From Pseudomonadota bacterium (lineage in GTDB: Bacteria; CALINM01), in the NCBI GenBank assembly GCA_026418415.1, contig JAOABK010000015.1, positions 1 through 39,361 of the forward strand: DNA of 39,361 nucleotides, written 5' to 3'. This document shows, piece by piece, positions 22,363 to 38,327 of the stretch. Each line of letters begins with the position of its first letter. Within the stretch, counting starts at the first letter, position 1. The notes beneath the pieces were generated by a model. It was not told the origin of the DNA. It did not search any database and saw only the letters and a list, made by a program, of their open reading frames with translations. A program made the position numbers and the translations under genes.

Positions 22363-23499
22363 CTAAATTTTATTAACGTCCTCATAAATCATTAACATCT
22401 CTTCAACAAATTTAATTTTTGAGTACCTTTTCACTGTTTCAAATCCATTTTTTATCAATTTATTTCTTATTGATTTATCAAGGCACTTTTTAATCTTGCC
22501 TGCAATATCTATAACGTCATCGGGATTACATAAAAAGCCATTTTCTCCATCTATAATAATTTCCTTTGTTCCTCCCTCTATTGTTCCAATTACTGGAACC
22601 CCTAAAGCCATTGCTTCTAAATAAACAAGACCATATGCTTCAGTAATTGAAGGCATAGCAAAAACATCGCTATCCATTATCATTTTTTTAACTTCTTCTC
22701 TTCTCAAATGCCCCATAAAATCAACAATTCCAGTATATCCCTCTTTTCTCATCCATTCTTCTATAATCTTCTGATTTTTATCCCTGCCCGCAACAACTAT
22801 TTTGATATTAATCCCCTCTTTTCTTAAGATATCTACTGCTTTAATCAATTGCAACAAACCCTTTCTTTGAAAATTTCCACCCACAAAACTTATTTTATAA
22901 TTATTTTTTATTTCCCTTTCCTTACAGGATATAGTTTCTAAAGGTGCAGGCAGGTAGACTGTCTTTATTTTTTCTTCTGGCAAGTCATAAAAATGATATA
23001 ACCTTTCCCTAACAAAATCAGTATTAGAAAGTATTAGATCAAATTTCTTATAGGCTATTTTTTCAAGCTTGTGAAGCATGAAGTAATAAATAAGCCTCTT
23101 CTTCCAGTCGAAAAAGTGCTTTTTTAAAATACTTTGTGATTGCAAATCCCAGGAATAGGTATCATGAACAGTCCCGATTACAAAAACATCCTTCTTTTTT
23201 TTAAAAAAAAGAGCTTCTCTTGCATCAAGAAAATGCACAATATGAATTGTATCTCTCATTTTCTCTAAAATCTTGGAGTATCTGATTGACAACTCAACCC
23301 ATTTATTGGGTGTGAATGAAAATATTGGTAGATTAACTTTTATAAAATGTGGCGGTTTATCTTCACAGTCTGGACTTATTATAAATACCTCATTTCCCCT
23401 ATCAATAAGTGCATCAACAAGTATATTGGCATAGGTCCCAACACCGCTGGTTATATTTTTATAAGTGGAGGTAACTAATGCAATCCTTTTCAATATCAA
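22363..23499 (-). CDS. Family 4 glycosyltransferase (GT-B fold)
   Basis: This 378-residue enzyme is a retaining GT-B glycosyltransferase. The N-terminal acceptor domain has SGVGTYANILVDALIDRG near residues 18-34. The C-terminal nucleotide-sugar domain shows KISFVGGNFQRKGLLQLIKA and the EX7E motif, E287 and E295, in EAYGLVYLEAMALGVPVIG. It should transfer a sugar from a nucleotide donor to a lipid-linked acceptor at the inner face of the membrane. The overlapping start is TTG (TTGA with the upstream stop). A second TTG two codons later at 23493 is better spaced from GGAGAG and may be the true start. Donor sugar unknown. Confidence 0.88.
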   Translation of the reverse strand: MILKRIALVTSTYKNITSGVGTYANILVDALIDRGNEVFIISPDCEDKPPHFIKVNLPIFSFTPNKWVELSIRYSKILEKMRDTIHIVHFLDAREALFFKKKKDVFVIGTVHDTYSWDLQSQSILKKHFFDWKKRLIYYFMLHKLEKIAYKKFDLILSNTDFVRERLYHFYDLPEEKIKTVYLPAPLETISCKEREIKNNYKISFVGGNFQRKGLLQLIKAVDILRKEGINIKIVVAGRDKNQKIIEEWMRKEGYTGIVDFMGHLRREEVKKMIMDSDVFAMPSITEAYGLVYLEAMALGVPVIGTIEGGTKEIIIDGENGFLCNPDDVIDIAGKIKKCLDKSIRNKLIKNGFETVKRYSKIKFVEEMLMIYEDVNKI

Positions 23500-24605
23500 C
23501 TCTCCAGTATTATCTTTTCTATAAGCCTGCCTAAAACATCAAAAGATGCTACTTCATGAAATCTTTTTTTCCCCTTTATTGATATTTTTTTTGCTTCCTC
23601 TTTGTTCTCATATACCCATTTTATCTTTTCTGCTAAATCCTCTGGATTTTCTGGTTCAACCATCAACAGATCCTCTTTATCTTTAAAGAACTCTTCCATC
23701 GCTTGTGTTTTAGCAGTAATAACCAGTGCCCCACAAGCTAAGGCATCAAATACCTTGTTTGGCACAACTCTAATAGCCTTTCCATTTCCCCTAAATATTC
23801 CAAGAACTACATCTGATGATTTAATCAGCCTATTCAATTCTTTCCTTTCCACCCAATCGATGAAATCTATATTTTTCATTTTTAGAACATCAACCATCTT
23901 TCTTATCTCACTATATAACTGTCCCCTTCCAACAAAAATAAATTTTATCTTCTCCCCTTCTAAAAGCTTTGCAGATTTAACAATTATATCAACTCCATGC
24001 AAGGGTATGTATTTACCTACATAAAGAACAGTAAAATTTTTACTTTTTTGAACCTCATTCTCATTCTCTAAGAATTCTCTCATCGCACCTACTGGCACCA
24101 CTCGAAACTTCCTTTCATCAACTTTAAAAAAGCCTGAGAGAAAAATTTTGTGTGTATTTGTATCAATAAAAACAACATCAGAAAGAATAAAAGCATATTT
24201 ATCAATCATATAAAGAATTTTTGCAATTATTGAATTTTCTTTAAAGATTCTTCTGTCAAAAACAAAAGTATCATATAAAGAGACCAGGGGATTGAAAAAA
24301 ATCTTCATGCCCTTTAATTTTGCCGGTAAGTAGAAAAAAATTACATCTAAATGAGACGGGTAGCCGATAAACAGATACTTAGAATCTTTAATTTTCAATA
24401 ATTTAATTAAAAGGGTTGCGTAGGCTTTAATAAATTTAACACCTAACTTTACCAAATTAAAAACACTTCCATACCTTAAAGCATCCTGCTCCCTTACTTC
24501 CTCATTTATCAAAGCAACATCAATACCTATACTTCTCATTGATTCTATAAAGATTACATTTCTTGAATAATCCTTTTCGAATGTTCCAAAGTAATATATT
24601 TTCAA
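23496..24605 (-). CDS. Glycosyltransferase, GT4-like
   Basis: This 369-residue glycosyltransferase is of GT-B type. The C-terminal donor domain shows FTVLYVGKYIPLHGVDIIVKSA, FIFVGRGQLYSEIRK and PNKVFDALACGALVITAK, which fits family 4 architecture. The canonical EX7E is less clear than in its neighbour, where KAIRVVPNKVFDALACG replaces the usual E-to-E spacing. The N-terminal half has YLFIGYPSHLDV and LKGMKIFFNPL, consistent with membrane association of the acceptor domain. It starts with TTG behind AAGGGAA and overlaps the FAD oxidoreductase stop by four bases (TTGA). It probably adds one residue of the glycan built by this cluster. Confidence 0.85.
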   Translation of the reverse strand: MKIYYFGTFEKDYSRNVIFIESMRSIGIDVALINEEVREQDALRYGSVFNLVKLGVKFIKAYATLLIKLLKIKDSKYLFIGYPSHLDVIFFYLPAKLKGMKIFFNPLVSLYDTFVFDRRIFKENSIIAKILYMIDKYAFILSDVVFIDTNTHKIFLSGFFKVDERKFRVVPVGAMREFLENENEVQKSKNFTVLYVGKYIPLHGVDIIVKSAKLLEGEKIKFIFVGRGQLYSEIRKMVDVLKMKNIDFIDWVERKELNRLIKSSDVVLGIFRGNGKAIRVVPNKVFDALACGALVITAKTQAMEEFFKDKEDLLMVEPENPEDLAEKIKWVYENKEEAKKISIKGKKRFHEVASFDVLGRLIEKIILES

Positions 24606-25717
24606 TTGTCCAGTTCCCTTAAAATATTAGTTACATATTCTCCAATAGCAAGAGATGAAGTAAGCCCTGGGGATTCGATTCCAATGAGATTTATTACACC
24701 CCTAAGCCCTTTATCAGATTCTTCATTGACAATGAAATCCCTTATCCCTTCACCTTTTAATTTTGGTCTAATACCGGACATGTCAGGAAAAAGGGCATTC
24801 CTATCTATGCCATCTAAGAGTAGTGTTGCCTTTTCATAAAACATATCCCTTTTTTCTGGGTCCACACCATAATCAATTGAGCTTACTTCATAAACATCGG
24901 GACCTAACTTCATTCTCCCGCCTAAATCAACAGTAATATGAATGCCTAACCCTTTTAAATCCCTATGGGGAATGGGATATACTAATCTTTTAACCAGTGA
25001 TGGCTTTGAGTAATAAAAATAATCTCCCTTATGGTAAGAAAGCCTATATCCAGCTTCATCAATATTAATGCCCATCATCTGTGCAATCCTGTCAGAATAT
25101 AAACCACCTGCATTAATAATATATTTAGAATTAATACTTTCTTCTTTTGAAGTAAAAATCTGATAACCCATCTCTGATTTAATTATTTTTTTAACTTCCC
25201 CTTTAAAAGCAAATAAAACACCTTTATCCTTTGACAAAAGATAGAGTCTCTTCATAAGTCCATGGGAATCAATTATGCCTGTTTCCTTTGAGTATATAGC
25301 CAGTCTACCCCTTGCATTACTTTCAAGCCTTCTTATTCCAACAATATCTATCACCTCTAAACCTTCAACATCATTTTTCATGCCCTGCTCATATAACTTA
25401 ATCAGCTCTTTTTCTTCAGAATCATTAATAGCCAGAATAAGCTTTCCTACCTTTGCATGGTTGATCCCATATCTTTCGCAGAAATTATACAAAAGCCTCC
25501 TTCCTCTTACACAAAACTTAGCTTTCTTAGTATTTTCTGGATAGTAAATCCCACTATGTATAACTTCACTATTTCTGCTACTTGTCTCCAAACCATAACT
25601 CTCATTTTTTTCAAAAACAACAATATCTTGAAAAAAGTTTGAAAGGTAATAAGCACAGGACAATCCAACTACACCAGCGCCAATTATAGCAATCTTAAAG
25701 TCATACATACTTGACAA
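24602..25717 (-). CDS. FAD-dependent oxidoreductase, L-2-hydroxyglutarate oxidase (LhgO)-like
   Basis: This 371-residue flavoprotein of the D-amino-acid oxidase fold has the FAD-binding GAGVVG at 13-18. The signature SRNSEVIHSGIYYP follows at about 47-60, as in LhgO and related 2-hydroxyacid oxidases. YIINAGGLYSDRIAQMMG and the C-terminal GIRPKLKGEG and NLIGIESPGLTSSLAIGEYV are also typical. Known relatives oxidise L-2-hydroxyglutarate and pass electrons to quinone. The gene is wedged between glycosyltransferase genes with a four-base overlap, so it may instead act on a hydroxy-acid linked to the glycan. That is inference. The start is TTG at 25717, or ATG three codons later at 25708. Confidence 0.85.
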   Translation of the reverse strand: MSSMYDFKIAIIGAGVVGLSCAYYLSNFFQDIVVFEKNESYGLETSSRNSEVIHSGIYYPENTKKAKFCVRGRRLLYNFCERYGINHAKVGKLILAINDSEEKELIKLYEQGMKNDVEGLEVIDIVGIRRLESNARGRLAIYSKETGIIDSHGLMKRLYLLSKDKGVLFAFKGEVKKIIKSEMGYQIFTSKEESINSKYIINAGGLYSDRIAQMMGINIDEAGYRLSYHKGDYFYYSKPSLVKRLVYPIPHRDLKGLGIHITVDLGGRMKLGPDVYEVSSIDYGVDPEKRDMFYEKATLLLDGIDRNALFPDMSGIRPKLKGEGIRDFIVNEESDKGLRGVINLIGIESPGLTSSLAIGEYVTNILRELDN

Positions 25718-25724
25718 CTTTCAG

Positions 25725-26681
25725 TTATGCTTGAGAATTATCAAAATTTAGTTCCCTCTTAACAGAATACTCCCGTTCCTTAACATAAAAACTTGTAAGA
25801 AGTTCTCCAATCAAACCCATGGAGATAAACTGTATCCCTATTATCATGTTCAAAATACCAAGCAGAAGTAAAGGTAACCTTCCAAGAATACTACTATAAC
25901 GGAATCTCAGATAGGCTATATAAATATTAATACATAACCCTATCAAAAATAAAATCAATCCAAAAAGCCCAAAAAAATGTAAAGGTTTCTTCCCGAATTT
26001 ACCTAAGAAAATTATTGTTAGCAAATCGAAGATACCTGCAAGAAATCTCTTTGCACCAAACTTGCTCTTACCAAACTTCCTTTCAGAATGCTTCACCTTT
26101 ACTTCAGTAACTTTAAATCCCTTCATATGAGCTAAATGAGGCATATACCTATGCAACTCTCCATACATTGCAACTTCTTGAATAACGTCTTTTCTCATTA
26201 CCTTAAGACCGCTATTCATATCATGAATTTTAAGACCTGTAAAAAAACCTGTTATACTGTTAATAACTTTGGATGGTAGTCTTTTGCTTATAGGATCCTT
26301 TCTTGGATACTTCCACCCAATTACAAGATCATAACCTTCTTTTAACTTCTCAATTAATTTCGGAACCTCTTCTGGCTGGTCTTGTAGATCTGCATCCATC
26401 GTAACTATAATATCACCACTCGCTTTTTTAAAACCCGCAGACAGGGCTGAAGACTTTCCAAAGTTTCTTCTAAAAGAAATCACCTTTACTCTCGTATCTT
26501 TTTTAGATAGATCTTCAAGAATTTGAAGGCTTCTATCTGTGCTACCATCATCTACAAAGATAAATTCAACATTATCCTGAAATACACCAATAAGTCTTTC
26601 ATAGAGAGGCTTTAAGCTCTCTTCTTCATTAAAAAGTGGTATAACTATTGAAATCATATTCTTTAAAATATCATAATTCAA
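25725..26681 (-). CDS. Family 2 glycosyltransferase with two C-terminal membrane helices (DPM/ArnC-like)
   Basis: This 318-residue GT-A enzyme resembles polyprenyl-phosphate glycosyltransferases, which load a sugar onto undecaprenyl phosphate. It shows IPLFNEEESLKPL, VDDGSTDRS (44-51), the donor-binding DADLQDQPEE (96-105) and MNSGLKVMRKDV. Two membrane helices follow at about 234-256 and 268-292, as in GtrB/ArnC-type proteins. Without the usual GtrA gene, the DUF2304-like protein next door may serve as its partner. The frame opens at 26681, but an ATG at 26657 (MISIVIPLFNEEE) fits the family start better. Neither has a clear ribosome binding site. Confidence 0.9.
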   Translation of the reverse strand: MNYDILKNMISIVIPLFNEEESLKPLYERLIGVFQDNVEFIFVDDGSTDRSLQILEDLSKKDTRVKVISFRRNFGKSSALSAGFKKASGDIIVTMDADLQDQPEEVPKLIEKLKEGYDLVIGWKYPRKDPISKRLPSKVINSITGFFTGLKIHDMNSGLKVMRKDVIQEVAMYGELHRYMPHLAHMKGFKVTEVKVKHSERKFGKSKFGAKRFLAGIFDLLTIIFLGKFGKKPLHFFGLFGLILFLIGLCINIYIAYLRFRYSSILGRLPLLLLGILNMIIGIQFISMGLIGELLTSFYVKEREYSVKRELNFDNSQA

Positions 26682-26701: not shown

Positions 26702-27037
26702 TTATTTATCTTCTTCCTTCTTTAATAAGGCTATTTCTCTTACAATTTTTGTTATATTCCCTTCTATATTTTCCAATCTTTGATAGATTTTGAAGAGTAA
26801 ATAAAAAATCACCATGATTGATATATAGATAAAAAAATCTGCTCCCCTTGTGATATTAAAAAAACGGGCAATCTTATTTGTTTCTTCAGGAAAAATTATG
26901 GCAAGAAAGACTGAAAGCCAAAAAATTAGGAATAAGAAAAACTTACTCCCCTTTATTTCTTTCCTTTTAAAGGCAAAAAACTTTTTTAGAATAATTAATA
27001 AAACTATAGTTCCAAAGAAAATCTGATATTTAAGCAA
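26702..27037 (-). CDS. Small DUF2304-like membrane protein
   Basis: This 111-residue protein has about three membrane helices (roughly 3-18, 33-50 and 66-84) and a charged C-terminal coiled segment (RLENIEGNITKIVREIALLKKEEDK). The pattern of three helices, the loop FFNITRGADFF and the C-terminal coil is that of DUF2304 proteins. These are repeatedly encoded beside dolichyl- or undecaprenyl-phosphate glycosyltransferases in archaea and bacteria. The start is TTG with a strong AGGAGG just upstream, inside the neighbouring glycosyltransferase, and the two genes overlap by eight bases. It lies between two family 2 glycosyltransferases and could help anchor them or assist lipid-linked sugar transfer. 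Function is not established. Confidence 0.82.
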   Translation of the reverse strand: MLKYQIFFGTIVLLIILKKFFAFKRKEIKGSKFFLFLIFWLSVFLAIIFPEETNKIARFFNITRGADFFIYISIMVIFYLLFKIYQRLENIEGNITKIVREIALLKKEEDK

Positions 27038-27719
27038 AGAACCTCCTTTTTATCATATGAAAAAATATATTAAAGGCATTAATATTTTTCTGTCCCTTGC
27101 TGATTGAATATTCAGTATAAACTATCTTTACCGGAACTTCTTTATACTTAAATCCATTCTTTACAACCTTCTCAAGTAGTTCTGAAGCATAGGAAAACCT
27201 ATCTTCTGTAAAAACTATTTTTTTAAACACCTCTCTTTTAAAGGCCCTGAGTCCGTTATGAACATCTGTGAGTTTTACTCCGTAGAGAAAATTTGAAATC
27301 AAAATACCAAATTTAAGCACTATTTTTCTTATATAAGGCATATTTTCCACTTCTCCCAAAAATCTTGAACCAAAAACAACATCAAATCCCTCTTCTAATA
27401 TTGGTCTTACAAGGTTTTCAATATCTTCTGGATTATGTTGTCCATCAGCATCAAAGTGAACTATCACCTCAAAATTTGTGTTTTTCAATATAAATTCAGT
27501 CCCCGTCTGAAGAGAAGCTCCCTTACCACGATTAACAACATGTCTTAACAAAAAAATGTCATAGCGCTTTGCTATATTATAAGTCTCATCTGTAGATCCA
27601 TCATCTACCAGAACTATATTTTTGTAACCACTGTTTATCAATCCATTTAACACGTTTGATATTACCTTTGCCTCATTAAGGGCAGTCATTAAAACCACGA
27701 TTTTATTCTTATCAATCAA
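27030..27719 (-). CDS. Family 2 glycosyltransferase (polyprenyl-phosphate mannosyl/glucosyl-like), no membrane tail
   Basis: This 229-residue GT-A enzyme is of the dolichyl-phosphate mannose synthase type. It has LMTALNEAKVISNVL, VDDGSTDET (38-46), RGKGASLQTG and DADGQHNPED (90-99), the aspartate pair binding metal and donor. It lacks the C-terminal helices of its relative at 25725, so it may need the adjacent small membrane protein for membrane association. The start is TTG preceded by GAGGGTG, overlapping the oligosaccharyltransferase stop by eight bases. It is likely to make a lipid-monophosphate sugar or to add the first sugar to a lipid carrier. The sugar cannot be read from sequence. 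Confidence 0.9.
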   Translation of the reverse strand: MIDKNKIVVLMTALNEAKVISNVLNGLINSGYKNIVLVDDGSTDETYNIAKRYDIFLLRHVVNRGKGASLQTGTEFILKNTNFEVIVHFDADGQHNPEDIENLVRPILEEGFDVVFGSRFLGEVENMPYIRKIVLKFGILISNFLYGVKLTDVHNGLRAFKREVFKKIVFTEDRFSYASELLEKVVKNGFKYKEVPVKIVYTEYSISKGQKNINAFNIFFHMIKRRFFA

Positions 27720-29826
27720 GATACACCCTCTTTTTACTAAGTTTTGTAATATCTATTTCAAAGTTTTTACCTTCAATAACCGCATCCTGTGAGACCCCAA
27801 TATTAAATTTTTTATCATCTACAAATATCTCATAATCATCTGCTTCAACCATACCATTAACCCATGCATAGGGAAGAATAAAATTAACATAACCTTTATC
27901 GTCAGTCTTGGACTTTTTCTTGAAGAAAAACATTCTATAAGGAGTCTTGGGCTTAAGTAATAGGGTTACCTCTTTGTTTTTACCAGCGTGTATCCTTAAA
28001 TTAGCACCTTTAACATATTCGTAAATTTTTATTCTTTTATTTACATTATTTCCCAAAAACTCTCCAATTAGCCTAAAATTATCAAGGGAGTTCTCATCTA
28101 ATTTAAGACCATAATTAAAATCAAGTATCCCGTATATTCTCTCAATTGGCTCCATATAGGGAAACCCTAAAAAATCAAACGTACCCCTTTCGTAAGTAGT
28201 GGCAGAAATTATCAGATATTTAACATTATATTTGTTTAATAATTGAATAAAAGTTTGTTCGCTATTTGTTACCATAAGTTTAAGCACGTCTATAAAGCTC
28301 TCCATCCCTCCAACTAAAAGGGCGTTATTTGCAATAACAGGCCTATTCGCGTAGGCAACAACAAAATATCCCTGGTGCCATGGTGCAAAAACTGAATATT
28401 CTGGTTTTATTGTTCCATCAAAGGGGTCTTTTGATGCCTTTGGAGTGTTTTCAGACAACCATGTATAGGCATCTTTTATTTCTCTTTCTATAAAAACTGA
28501 AAAATATTTTTTTGTCTTACTAATCGATATCCCCCACTCTGAAAGAACAATAATCAAAAAAGCCATATAGGCTAATAAAAGTCTTTTAGAGTTAATCCTG
28601 TTCATTAGAAAAATAAGTGAGATACCTATAAAAGGAGCATAAATATAGCTAAATCGCCTTTGAATAAAGGTTAGAACAGCAAAAGATAAAATAAGAAAAA
28701 TAACAAAAGTAACTTCTGTACTTTTATCTCTGAAGAAATAATAGACAGAAATCAAAGGTACAATAAGATAAACAAAAAAGATGATCCTTAGGATAAATTC
28801 CTCATCTATTTTTCCCTTCCACAACCCTACTTTAAACACGGATTGCATCTCAAGAACAGATACAAAACCCTTTTCCTGACCTGTGAGAAATCCTATTCCT
28901 TTTAACAACTCATCCTTTAACAGGAACATCAATAAAACTAATATTAGAAAATTAATAGTTGCCATAATCCTCTTTTTTTCAAAGAGAAATGAAAAACCAG
29001 TTAAAAATATGCCACAGCATAGAAGACTAAGGGATGAGAAAAAAGAGTATCTTCCAAAATGAAGAGAGGGTTTATAGGGTGGCAATAAAGTCATGAATCC
29101 AAAAACTATAATAGCAGTGAAAATCATTGCAAAACCAATATATTTGCCTATAACAAAGTTCTTTTCGTATAGCAAAAAATAAACAAAAGTAAAAAGAACA
29201 ATCAATCCAGCGTAAAGTATAGCCCCCTGCCATATTAAAAAGATTACAAGCAAGGAAATAGCAAATTTAAAAAAATTTTTTAAACTGGTATCTTTACAAA
29301 ACTCCAAAAAATAATTAAACAAAAACAGGGCAATTAGACACTCCAACCCATGATGATCACCATCAATAGCATTGGTATACCAATAGTGTAGGGGCATAAA
29401 GACTGATATGAAAGCAGAAAAAAGGGCATATTTTTTATCCATTATCTTCTTTGATAAAAGATACACTGGAAGACAAATGAGAGAACCAGCAAGGGCAGTA
29501 ACCCCAGATGTAACGAGCTCAACAATATGTAAATAAGGCTTTCCTAAAGCCAAAATCCAAGATATAAGGGCTAAAAAAAAGGGATAAAAAGGTGGACTTG
29601 GAAAATCGACAGGTTCTGAGTAATTTAAATAATAATCAAAACTGGGAACTTTTGGGAAATCATTTAAAATTGTTAAAATTCGCCTCACATAATATAGATT
29701 GTCAGGTTGATAAAAAAGGATTGGGCTTTCTCTCAACTCGCTTATAAAAGGAAGATATCTCAAAAGCAAACCAAATAAAACAAAGAGAGGTAATAAAATT
29801 CTCTCATTATATCTTAATGTACTCAA
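27712..29826 (-). CDS. STT3/AglB/PglB-type oligosaccharyltransferase (GT66-like)
   Basis: This 704-residue protein probably transfers a lipid-linked glycan to asparagine of exported proteins. It has about a dozen membrane helices to residue 430, then a soluble extracytoplasmic domain. Catalytic-loop features are present: YQPDNLYYVRRI with D42 in the first loop, DGDHHGLE (155-162, the DHH form of archaeal AglB) in the second, and SVLE (323-326) matching the SVSE/TIxE motif. RRFSYIYAPF follows at 390-399. The sequon-binding WWDYG motif is replaced by PWHQG at 482-486 (in VFAPWHQGYFVVAYANRPV), which still precedes the expected RPV segment. The start is TTG behind GGAG, overlapping the upstream gene by 20 bases. 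Glycosyltransferases flank it on both sides. Family placement is firm, but activity and acceptor sequon are less certain because of the altered motif. Confidence 0.85.
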   Translation of the reverse strand: MSTLRYNERILLPLFVLFGLLLRYLPFISELRESPILFYQPDNLYYVRRILTILNDFPKVPSFDYYLNYSEPVDFPSPPFYPFFLALISWILALGKPYLHIVELVTSGVTALAGSLICLPVYLLSKKIMDKKYALFSAFISVFMPLHYWYTNAIDGDHHGLECLIALFLFNYFLEFCKDTSLKNFFKFAISLLVIFLIWQGAILYAGLIVLFTFVYFLLYEKNFVIGKYIGFAMIFTAIIVFGFMTLLPPYKPSLHFGRYSFFSSLSLLCCGIFLTGFSFLFEKKRIMATINFLILVLLMFLLKDELLKGIGFLTGQEKGFVSVLEMQSVFKVGLWKGKIDEEFILRIIFFVYLIVPLISVYYFFRDKSTEVTFVIFLILSFAVLTFIQRRFSYIYAPFIGISLIFLMNRINSKRLLLAYMAFLIIVLSEWGISISKTKKYFSVFIEREIKDAYTWLSENTPKASKDPFDGTIKPEYSVFAPWHQGYFVVAYANRPVIANNALLVGGMESFIDVLKLMVTNSEQTFIQLLNKYNVKYLIISATTYERGTFDFLGFPYMEPIERIYGILDFNYGLKLDENSLDNFRLIGEFLGNNVNKRIKIYEYVKGANLRIHAGKNKEVTLLLKPKTPYRMFFFKKKSKTDDKGYVNFILPYAWVNGMVEADDYEIFVDDKKFNIGVSQDAVIEGKNFEIDITKLSKKRVYLD

Positions 29827-30751
29827 TTCTTAATTCTCCATCATTTACTTTTTTGAAGGGGGCCCTTAAAAGACCATATATTAACCCAATACCATAAGTA
29901 ACATGAAGCAAGAAAGTAGTAAAGGGTATGCAAATATATCGAAAATCATTTTCTTTAAAAGCTTTAATAAAAGCATCAATAAAAAGAATTGTAAAATAAA
30001 CAATTATAGGAATTAATAAATAACCCCCTTTGATGATAGCAATCATAAAATAAATCAAAAAAAGGAGGGGCAAAAAATTTAGTATGTTAAAGCTTTTGGG
30101 ATAAAAAAACGTTTGTTCTCCTCTCCCTCTTCCATAATTAAAAATCTGTTTAATAAAAGATTTAAGTGTTTTCCTTGGCATTCTTATTACCACTGCATCA
30201 GGGTCATAAACCATTTTCATCCCCCCATGATTTAACTTCTCCATTAGTTCATTCTCTTCATTGGGATAAAGCCTTTCATTAAGCCCCCCAAATTGAAGAT
30301 AAATATCTCTTTTCATGACCATATTACATAAAATAATCTCCTTTTCTCCAGTTAACCTAACCTTACCTATTCTTTTGTACCTTGCCCTTGACGCTCCAGT
30401 TGAAAAAATAGACTCAAGGGTTTTACCAAATAAAAAGGCGCCAAAGGGACATTCTTCTGGCATAATACTTGGCCCACCTGCTAAAACAACATCACCCTTT
30501 AAATGTCCAATCAACCTCTTTAATGTATCTTTTTCTGGCATAGAGTCATTATCAAGAAAGTAAATAATCTCTCCCTTTGCAAGTTTAACCGCTTCATTTC
30601 TTTGTTTCGAGGGATTTTTCCCGTATACGGTGATTATCTCTATTTTATCTTTTGGGTAGTTTAGCTCTTTAATTGCTAAAACAGCATCTGGATTTAATCC
30701 AGGTTTTACAGGTATTACTATAGTAACAGATGGCAAATCTGCATTTTCCAT
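29807..30751 (-). CDS. Family 2 glycosyltransferase with C-terminal membrane region
   Basis: This 314-residue GT-A enzyme has VTIVIPVKPGLNPDAV, RNEAVKLAKGEIIYFLDNDS (DND at 67-69) and FGGLNERLYPNEENELMEKL, the acceptor-side acidic motif. The C-terminal third, from about 218, has three to four membrane helices, so the enzyme is membrane-bound. It is the first gene of the leftward glycan cluster and its 3' end overlaps the oligosaccharyltransferase gene by 20 bases. There is no ribosome binding site before the ATG at 30751. The upstream sequence is an AT-rich divergent spacer shared with the rightward epimerase gene, so translation may be weak or leaderless. Confidence 0.87.
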   Translation of the reverse strand: MENADLPSVTIVIPVKPGLNPDAVLAIKELNYPKDKIEIITVYGKNPSKQRNEAVKLAKGEIIYFLDNDSMPEKDTLKRLIGHLKGDVVLAGGPSIMPEECPFGAFLFGKTLESIFSTGASRARYKRIGKVRLTGEKEIILCNMVMKRDIYLQFGGLNERLYPNEENELMEKLNHGGMKMVYDPDAVVIRMPRKTLKSFIKQIFNYGRGRGEQTFFYPKSFNILNFLPLLFLIYFMIAIIKGGYLLIPIIVYFTILFIDAFIKAFKENDFRYICIPFTTFLLHVTYGIGLIYGLLRAPFKKVNDGELRIEYIKI

Positions 30752-35837: not shown

Positions 35838-38327
35838 TTATTTCACTCCTTTATTAACCATTTCTTCCACTTTCTTTAAAAGAGTTTCTGCCATTTTCTT
35901 TTCTAAACTTTCTGCATAAATAGTAAAATATGCTTTGTCTTGGGATGGTATTGCAAGGTACCAACCATCATCTTCAAATACCTTAATACCATCTATAAGC
36001 TCAACATTTTTATCAGAAGTTTTCTCCACAAGATACCTCATTACAGTACCCTTTTTCTCCCAGGGACAAGGTATATTTGTAGTTAATAAAAAGGTTTTAG
36101 GAATGCCTCTCAATATTTCGTGTATTGATACATCAAGTATCGCAAGCATCTCAAGAATTTTAACAATACTAAACATACCATCAAAGGCAGGTAAAAAATT
36201 AGGGAATATATATCCTCCATAGTTTTCACCCACAAACCCAACATCATACATCATCGATGCTTCCATTAAAGCCCTGCTGGTTGTTTTAGTTCTTACTACC
36301 TGAGCATTATTCTTTTCCGCAAGCATCTCTATGACCATTGATGCATTAACAGGTACCGCTATCCTTTTAGGTTTGAAGGTTTCAAGGTAAAGTTTGGCTA
36401 CCACACATAAGGCTGTTGAGCCATCATAAATCTCGCCTTTATGATCAATTATATATATCTTTTCAGCACCAGCATCAAGAAAGAATCCCGCATCTGCCTT
36501 AAGAGACACTACGATATTGCTTAATTGATTAATAGAATATTGGAACTCTTCAGCTGTCTTTGTTAACCTCGAACTATCTAAATTTGCATTCAAAGCAACT
36601 ACTTCACAATCCATCTTGCCAATTAAGTTATGAAACAGGGAAGATGAACTTCCATGGGAAAAATCTATTACTATTTTAAACCTTTTTTTCTTTATCTTTT
36701 CTACGTCAATTTTACTAAGAAATCCTTCTTTATACTTTTCAATTGCATGGGTTGGAAACCCAATCTCTCCAGTTTCTTCAAGAACAACCCTTCTAAAGTC
36801 CTCTCCAAAGAAAAATCTCTCTATAGTTTTTTCTTTAGAGCTATGAATATCAATCCCATTCTCTTCATAAAACTTCATATCAATAAAATCTTTATCAAAG
36901 GGAGAACGTCTTGTATGAACACCACCAACCTCATTCTCTTCCCTTGAAAGATACCTGACCACGGGAATTGGCACTACACCATAGTCATGTACATTAACCC
37001 CCGTTGACAAAACACCAGTCATAAAAGCTCTATTAATCATCCTCGAAGCGGGATGATGATCTCTTGAGGTTGCAATAGTACTTCCCTTCTTAAATGTTGC
37101 ACCGTATGAAGCGCCTAATCTTGCAGCGAACTCAGGAGTAATCTCAAAATTAGCAATACCGTTTACTCCATAGGGTCCAAAAATAGATTTAGACCATTTT
37201 TCACCCCAAACTAAACTTGAAGCCAAAACCGCTCCATCTTCCACAGTCTTCATTGGCCAGACCTTAACTCCTGCCTTCAAAGTGGCATTTTTACCAATCA
37301 CACAATGATCAGAAATAACCACTCCCTCAGAGAGATACACTCCTTCGTTTATAACAACATTATTACAAATTATAGCCTCATATAATCGTGAATCCCTACC
37401 AATAAATGTATTATCCCATATTACTGAATCGTAAATATGAACCCCTTCTTCTATAACACAATTATTTCCAATCACTGAATTTCTAATTTTTACTCCCTTA
37501 CCTACCTTAGTATTTTTTCCTATTACCACAGAACCATCAGTTATAATCGTATAATCAACCTCAGCACCATCATCTATAAAAACCCCTTTGTTTACTAAAT
37601 TGCCAGAGATTTTGATATTAACCTTTCCTTCCAATACATCCTGATGTGCTAATCTATACTCTGTTATATTTCCTACATCTTTCCAGTACCCATCCATAAG
37701 GGCACCGTATATATTAATCTTTTTCTTCATTAATAGGGGAAAAAGATCTTTGCTGAAATCAAACTCTTTATTTGCTGGAATGTGTTTTAGCACTTCTTGT
37801 TCTAAAATATAAATACCTGTATTAATAGTATCGCTAAAAACTTCTCCCCATGTTGGCTTTTCATAAAATTTTGTAATTTTACCCTCTTCATCAAAAATCA
37901 CTATCCCAAAGGGAAGGGGGTTTTGCACCCTTGTAAGTAAAATAGTTGCTTTCGACTTCTTATTTAAATGAAAATCAATAGCAGAACTCAAATTAAAATC
38001 TGTTAGGACATCTCCAGAAATTACAATAAATGTGCTATCAATATATTCTTCTGCTAACTTAACCGCTCCAGCGGTTCCAAAATCTTCTTGGGGTAATATA
38101 TAACTAATCTTAACACCAAAATCTTCACCGTTTTTAAAATAATCCTGAATAATTTCAGCTTGATAAAAGAGAAGTACAATAATGTCAGTTATACCGTTTG
38201 CCTTTAATAGATTAATTATATGCTCCATCATTGGCTTATTAACAAGTGGCACCATTGGTTTGGGGATATTTTGAGTTACTGGTCTTAGACGTGTACCAAA
38301 ACCTCCCGCCATTAAAACAGCTTTCAT
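35838..38327 (-). CDS. NDP-sugar pyrophosphorylase fused to a degenerate phosphomannomutase domain
   Basis: This 829-residue fusion has three parts. Residues 1-235 form a sugar-phosphate nucleotidyltransferase with MAGGFGTRLRP (6-16), PKPMVPL (22-28) and VISGDVLTD (102-110), all intact. Residues 240-375 are a left-handed beta-helix of hexapeptide repeats (VVIGKNTKVGKGVKI). Residues 376-829 are homologous to phosphomannomutase (SRDHHPASRMINRAFMTG, DYGVVPIPVVRYL), but every catalytic motif is altered. The phosphoserine loop is VHTRRSPFD (470-478), the metal loop DAGAEK (618-623), the sugar loop GENYGGY (700-706) and the phosphate loop PSQDKAYF (794-801). The architecture is known as mannose-1-phosphate guanylyltransferase-like in cyanobacteria and Deltaproteobacteria. 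AAGGGGGG precedes the ATG. Confidence 0.9.
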   Translation of the reverse strand: MKAVLMAGGFGTRLRPVTQNIPKPMVPLVNKPMMEHIINLLKANGITDIIVLLFYQAEIIQDYFKNGEDFGVKISYILPQEDFGTAGAVKLAEEYIDSTFIVISGDVLTDFNLSSAIDFHLNKKSKATILLTRVQNPLPFGIVIFDEEGKITKFYEKPTWGEVFSDTINTGIYILEQEVLKHIPANKEFDFSKDLFPLLMKKKINIYGALMDGYWKDVGNITEYRLAHQDVLEGKVNIKISGNLVNKGVFIDDGAEVDYTIITDGSVVIGKNTKVGKGVKIRNSVIGNNCVIEEGVHIYDSVIWDNTFIGRDSRLYEAIICNNVVINEGVYLSEGVVISDHCVIGKNATLKAGVKVWPMKTVEDGAVLASSLVWGEKWSKSIFGPYGVNGIANFEITPEFAARLGASYGATFKKGSTIATSRDHHPASRMINRAFMTGVLSTGVNVHDYGVVPIPVVRYLSREENEVGGVHTRRSPFDKDFIDMKFYEENGIDIHSSKEKTIERFFFGEDFRRVVLEETGEIGFPTHAIEKYKEGFLSKIDVEKIKKKRFKIVIDFSHGSSSSLFHNLIGKMDCEVVALNANLDSSRLTKTAEEFQYSINQLSNIVVSLKADAGFFLDAGAEKIYIIDHKGEIYDGSTALCVVAKLYLETFKPKRIAVPVNASMVIEMLAEKNNAQVVRTKTTSRALMEASMMYDVGFVGENYGGYIFPNFLPAFDGMFSIVKILEMLAILDVSIHEILRGIPKTFLLTTNIPCPWEKKGTVMRYLVEKTSDKNVELIDGIKVFEDDGWYLAIPSQDKAYFTIYAESLEKKMAETLLKKVEEMVNKGVK

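Follow-up and report, generated by a model that had tools for sequence, protein, structure and literature searches.

A scattered bacterial group of AglB-like GT66 homologs in which another sequence stands at the WWDYG position

Introduction

What is the likely role of an oligosaccharyltransferase homolog in which the catalytic centre is kept and the motif that reads the acceptor is replaced? This question is raised by an STT3-type gene of a Pseudomonadota bacterium (assembly GCA_026418415.1), found on contig JAOABK010000015.1, of which we analysed positions 1 to 39,361 (39,361 nucleotides, hereafter the window). In known enzymes of this type, the pocket for the +2 Ser/Thr of the sequon is made up of the WWDYG motif and the DK/MI motif (PMC8342417, PMC3703281). 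The +2 hydroxyl is hydrogen-bonded by the WWD residues, and PglB loses its activity when WWDYG is mutated (PMC3527161); in Archaeoglobus fulgidus AglB (AfAglB) the pocket is completed by the lysine of the DK motif (PMC3703281). Strict or high conservation of WWDYG is reported for oligosaccharyltransferases (PMC3527161; PMC4287180), the known variation being at the Tyr position, as in the WWDNG of methanogens (PMC5131992), and bacterial N-glycosylation is held to be nearly confined to the delta- and epsilon-proteobacteria (PMC4973528). Our literature search of open-licence papers returned no earlier description of a bacterial group without WWD. A widespread group with the catalytic centre and without the motif would either break the rule that WWD reads the sequon or mark a new acceptor, and both outcomes would be useful for glycoengineering, which is limited by the acceptor choice of the known enzymes.

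A GT66 homolog with PWHQG in the WWDYG position

The STT3-type gene lies at 27712-29826 on the minus strand, just where the sequence-only reading had placed it, and is an open frame of 704 codons with a TTG start; the plus strand of the same interval has stops throughout. Read from the minus strand at 28383-28369, cca tgg cac cag gga gives P482-W483-H484-Q485-G486, and in our final alignment these five residues fill the columns of W550-W551-D552-Y553-G554 of AfAglB. A phmmer search against the PDB had already matched PWHQG with WWDYG in soluble domains of AglB, and a family profile set the motif column against WWDYGH of AfAglB-L (E 2.5e-81) and WWDYGY of human STT3A (E 6e-31). The replacement noticed from the sequence alone is thereby confirmed to the codon. 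That reading had the Asp and one Trp gone, which is correct for both residues but incomplete, as the Tyr is replaced too and W483 and G486 alone remain. The protein is thus without WWDYG, the motif by which N-X-S/T oligosaccharyltransferases are recognised, and no better-aligning copy of it, nor any other WWD, occurs anywhere in the 704 residues. A frameshift is very unlikely as the origin of PWHQG, since the frame runs on through conserved sequence on both sides. Similarly, a sequencing error in one genome is very unlikely, given that the ortholog in a genome of the same family (L009, 43% identity) reads PWYQG.

As regards family, the best model was TIGR04154 (archaeosortase A system-associated STT3; E 2e-54), albeit at 185.1 bits against a curated cut-off of 450. 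The AglB_L1 peripheral domain was found at residues 607-687 (27766..28008, minus strand; Pfam PF18079, 26.6 bits, cut-off 23.6), and the Pfam STT3 model PF02516 gave 19.0 bits (E 0.0011), below its gathering cut-off of 24.5, which a paralog in the same genome (L002) exceeds with 64 bits. An AlphaFold2 model computed from a 20-row alignment (pLDDT 85.9, pTM 0.86) has the multi-TM N-terminal domain and C-terminal oligosaccharyltransferase core of the GT66 fold. Its best solved match is AfAglB (PDB ID: 3waj), with a Z of 33.1 over 621 residues at 3.3 Å and a Foldseek value of 6e-26, followed by yeast and human STT3 (Z 27-33), PglB (Z 24-25) and, below all oligosaccharyltransferase entries, DPY19 (Z 23-24). 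ArnT and the arabinosyltransferases are weaker matches, with a Z of about 13-20 as against 25-33 for AglB and STT3. The component 27 / YfhO-like family (PMC10584680) is a further STT3-related one. From the predicted fold, together with the open frame, the TIGR04154 match and the profile alignment to AfAglB, we assign the 704-residue protein as a bacterial AglB-like member of the GT66 (STT3/AglB) fold, and the structure prediction proposed earlier has thus returned an AglB-type model.

A conserved catalytic centre and a varied acceptor pocket

The two DXD-type metal motifs and the TIXE/SVSE glutamate that mark GT66 enzymes are found here as D42, D157, H159 and E326. The aspartate of the first DXD motif, D42 (29701..29703, minus strand; AfAglB D47), is present in 31 of the 31 alignment rows that cover it, and the same count holds for D157 of the second metal motif, D157-H158-H159 (29350..29358, minus strand; AfAglB D161 and H163). 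The TIXE-type glutamate E326, within SVLE (28849..28851, minus strand; AfAglB E360), occurs in all 32 rows, making these three residues invariant wherever covered, and the phosphate-site arginine R391 (28654..28656, minus strand; AfAglB R426) is Arg in 31 rows and Lys in one. The catalytic-loop features that had been listed from the sequence are indeed retained, as D42, DGDHHGLE (with E162), SVLE (with E326) and QRRF (with R391). In AglB, the TIXE-type Glu adjoins the acceptor peptide, and the conservation of E326 suggests that Asn or amide chemistry is retained.

In the alignment, on which our view of the pocket geometry is based, the catalytic and phosphate-site residues of the 32 members are kept while those of the pocket vary. 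As for the second half of the pocket, the kinked-helix (DK) region is shortened in the window protein, the L009 ortholog and the myxococcal members, and in the final alignment, which is poor in this region, none of these has a counterpart of AfAglB K618. No conserved Lys was seen in the DK region of the other members, where the alignment is also weak. The DK-motif lysine seems, then, to be missing too, though we treat the K618 gap as supportive only because of the weak alignment.

Distribution and phylogeny

The genome of the window encodes two further members, with the motifs PWDHG and SWELG, and the same-family genome has SWHLG besides its PWYQG ortholog. When 84,980 species genomes were scanned, relatives turned up in Myxococcota, Planctomycetota, Gemmatimonadota, Marinimicrobia, Dehalococcoidia and Fischerbacteria. 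Further members came from 290 genomes searched with TIGR04154, with about 14 genomes matching strongly; matches in other genomes weaker than about E 1e-15 were taken as other GT-C proteins and excluded. Among the 32 aligned members, the first motif position is never Trp (P in 8, H in 8, S in 6, and others), the second is Trp in 24, the third is Asp in 8 and Asn in 10, and the fifth is Gly in every one. Both Trp are gone in the Myxococcota (HANLG, HPNLG), and one member that scores above the curated TIGR04154 cut-off has PWIAG. Two weak members (L043 and L044) are included in these counts and left out of the tree, and the conclusion is the same either way.

By contrast, and with no sign of PxHxG being common among proven enzymes, WWDYG stands in AfAglB, in human STT3A and in 37 of 37 bacterial PglB-type proteins sampled. 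Thirty of the latter are loci of one PglB-rich phylum, where WWD was found in every locus and none was discarded; the other seven were picked from 16 loci after the motif had been seen, so that their count could be biased, the rest of the 16 being AglB-like, fragments or unclear. To judge from the aligned columns, the motif change is not an isolated one and is common to a scattered bacterial group of AglB-like GT66 proteins. The idea that the protein belongs to a diverged subgroup sharing the fold is hence borne out, and the alignment that had been advised places this subgroup far beyond the window protein, with the motif changed in all 32 members from several phyla.

For the tree, the motif columns were omitted, and 29 non-WWDYG rows fell on one side of a single branch (SH-aLRT 84), with one change of motif state as against a shuffled mean of 15.8. 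AfAglB branches with the non-WWDYG rows before the PglB-type rows (support 99). The nearest neighbour of the window protein is the L009 ortholog (100) and then the PWDHG paralog of its own genome (96), with PglB on the opposite side of the tree. This suggests a single origin of the non-WWDYG group without proving it, because the tree was made by a quick method, has long branches and includes one archaeal row (AfAglB).

Gene surroundings

The gene is the second in a minus-strand block with the order GT2, STT3, GT2 (PpgS/AglJ-like), DUF2304, GT2 (ArnC-like), FAD oxidoreductase, GT4 and GT4, conserved in outline in L009 and in part in a genome of the same genus (L010). The first gene (29807..30751), a glycosyltransferase family 2 protein of 314 residues by family match, has a 20-base overlap with the start of STT3, and in L009 and L010, too, its counterpart stands ahead of the ortholog. 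Downstream of STT3 is a GT2 of the polyprenyl-phosphate sugar synthase type (27030..27719), whose matches to NF058614 (E 7e-56) and to TIGR04182 AglJ (E 3e-28) are both under the curated cut-off. There follow a DUF2304 membrane protein (26702..27037; PF10066, E 2.5e-21), a GT2 of the undecaprenyl-phosphate glycosyltransferase (ArnC/PgfS) type (25725..26681; NF007986, E 5e-60, under cut-off) and an FAD-dependent oxidoreductase of the DAO family (24602..25717; PF01266, E 4e-52), the last being syntenic in L009 and L010. This oxidoreductase is of the L-2-hydroxyglutarate oxidase or type 2 glycerol-3-phosphate oxidase type, and sits amid glycosyltransferases. Two GT4 glycosyltransferases (22363..24605; PF00534) close the cluster, with counterparts of both in L010 and of one in L009. 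Elsewhere in the window, an 829-residue protein (35838-38327) looks, from its translation alone, like a fusion of a sugar-1-phosphate nucleotidyltransferase with a phosphomannomutase-like domain.

In L010 (CALINM010000118.1, 4573-5389), the ortholog is truncated at about residue 236. Neither its 3' end nor the GT2 gene beyond is present, and DUF2304 comes straight afterwards; this gap may be a deletion or an assembly collapse. The PWDHG paralog (contig C111; L074:2093-5278) has an AglJ-like GT2 directly after it. With 64 bits to PF02516 and its Asp kept, it is the member in this genome that most clearly resembles AglB. In a Myxococcota bacterium (cluster2_bin.176; L026:2419-8187), a member with HPNLG is preceded by an AglJ-like GT2, a UDP-GlcNAc 3-dehydrogenase-like Gfo/Idh protein, a DegT aminotransferase and a hexapeptide acetyltransferase. 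The last three are enzymes of amino-sugar type, and the set is reminiscent of the genes for diamino sugars in the N-glycans of methanogens. Gene context differs within the group, since the neighbours of three other members (L012, L014 and L016) are unrelated. Initiating transferases of PF02397 and PF00953 are also encoded in the genome of the window, and these, with the gene surroundings, make polyprenyl-linked sugar donors likely.

Discussion

With modest confidence, we favour the view that the window protein is an active, metal-dependent GT66 transferase of a lipid-linked glycan, whose acceptor pocket has been remodelled. That glycan transfer continues and the acceptor is read differently we infer from the biochemistry of PglB and AglB (PMC3527161, PMC8342417). 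The donor would be a glycan linked to polyprenyl-(di)phosphate, assembled by the glycosyltransferases whose genes surround that of STT3 and moved onto the acceptor at the outer face of the inner membrane. Here, the donor and catalytic side would be that of AglB and the acceptor-reading side would have been rebuilt, the WWD residues and apparently the DK lysine having gone, and one Trp and the Gly being left. Most likely, the glycan would still go to the side chain of a protein residue, probably Asn, but the site would not be specified by classical reading of a Ser/Thr at +2. The sequence-only suggestion of a different sequon is to this extent a reasonable conjecture, following as it does from the lost +2 Ser/Thr-binding residues. 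In a 326-kb sample, 48 secreted proteins predicted by a crude signal-peptide rule contain 79 N-X-S/T sequons against 85.8 expected (z -0.8), much as in cytoplasmic proteins; at such low power, the count speaks neither for nor against a sequon. A broader proposition, plausible but tentative, is that a group spread over many phyla gave up +2 Ser/Thr reading and glycosylates another acceptor site, in which case one cell would have, in the product of this gene and those of its two paralogs, three enzymes that differ in their acceptor rules.

The +2 pocket of oligosaccharyltransferases is plastic and the Asp is kept in 8 members, and for these reasons Ser/Thr reading might survive through other contacts. 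The window protein would then be an ordinary N-X-S/T enzyme from a lineage tolerant of motif change, with W483 and other residues (e.g., H484 as a hydrogen-bond partner) holding the +2 hydroxyl. The AglB-type predicted fold and catalytic residues agree with this, as do the frequent second Trp, the constant Gly, the Asp in the nearest own-genome paralog (PWDHG) and the precedent for a variable Tyr position (PMC5131992). However, the first Trp is missing in 32 of 32 members and the Asp in 24, the Myxococcota have lost both Trp, the DK lysine is unmatched in the alignment of the window protein and motif mutations inactivate PglB (PMC3527161); we therefore consider an unaltered sequon rule rather unlikely, if a serious contender. 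Decay of the gene, with the motif change as a loss of function, is scarcely credible: the truncated L010 ortholog would fit it, though that may be an assembly fault, and it is opposed by the open frame, catalytic residues and synteny kept in L009 at 43% identity and by the same kind of motif change across phyla.

Two further readings keep a working enzyme and change the acceptor more radically. The window cluster could equally make a surface polysaccharide, and ArnT and the arabinosyltransferases are among the weaker fold matches, as would suit an enzyme that, like other GT-C enzymes, caps or lengthens a glycan carried by a lipid or polysaccharide. Yet their Z scores fall well under those of AglB and STT3, the protein has a C-terminal core of AglB type as well as the AglB_L1 domain, and no aligned member lacks the Glu that in AglB neighbours the acceptor peptide, which leaves a non-protein acceptor improbable. 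Modification of a protein on some other residue (e.g., Ser/Thr, Tyr or Trp) has its precedent in the DPY19 C-mannosyltransferases, CeDPY19 being the next fold after the oligosaccharyltransferases, and the loss of the pocket motif would agree with it; since D42, D157 and E326, the residues for metal binding and Asn activation, have all been retained, suggesting the same for Asn chemistry, we think this very improbable.

A remodelled acceptor pocket on an AglB-like enzyme, as we favour, would set the window protein apart from the known systems closest to it. With A. fulgidus AglB-L (GT66; PDB ID: 3WAJ, 7E9S), it shares the predicted fold, the metal residues, the TIXE Glu, the phosphate-site Arg, the C-terminal core and the peripheral domain; it differs in being bacterial, in having PWHQG for WWDYG and no alignment match to K618, and in an identity of only about 20%. 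TIGR04154 describes its nearest named family, though at a score far below the cut-off. Campylobacter PglB (GT66; PDB ID: 3RCE, 5OGL) has in common the GT66 fold, the DXD Asp, the TIXE Glu and the Arg, but forms a separate clade in which WWDYG is constant, mostly followed by DGGK, and its second metal motif is DTD rather than DHH. Lastly, DPY19 has an STT3-related GT-C fold and demonstrates a different acceptor on the same scaffold, whereas the window protein, at about 12% identity to it, keeps the metal and Glu residues of an oligosaccharyltransferase.
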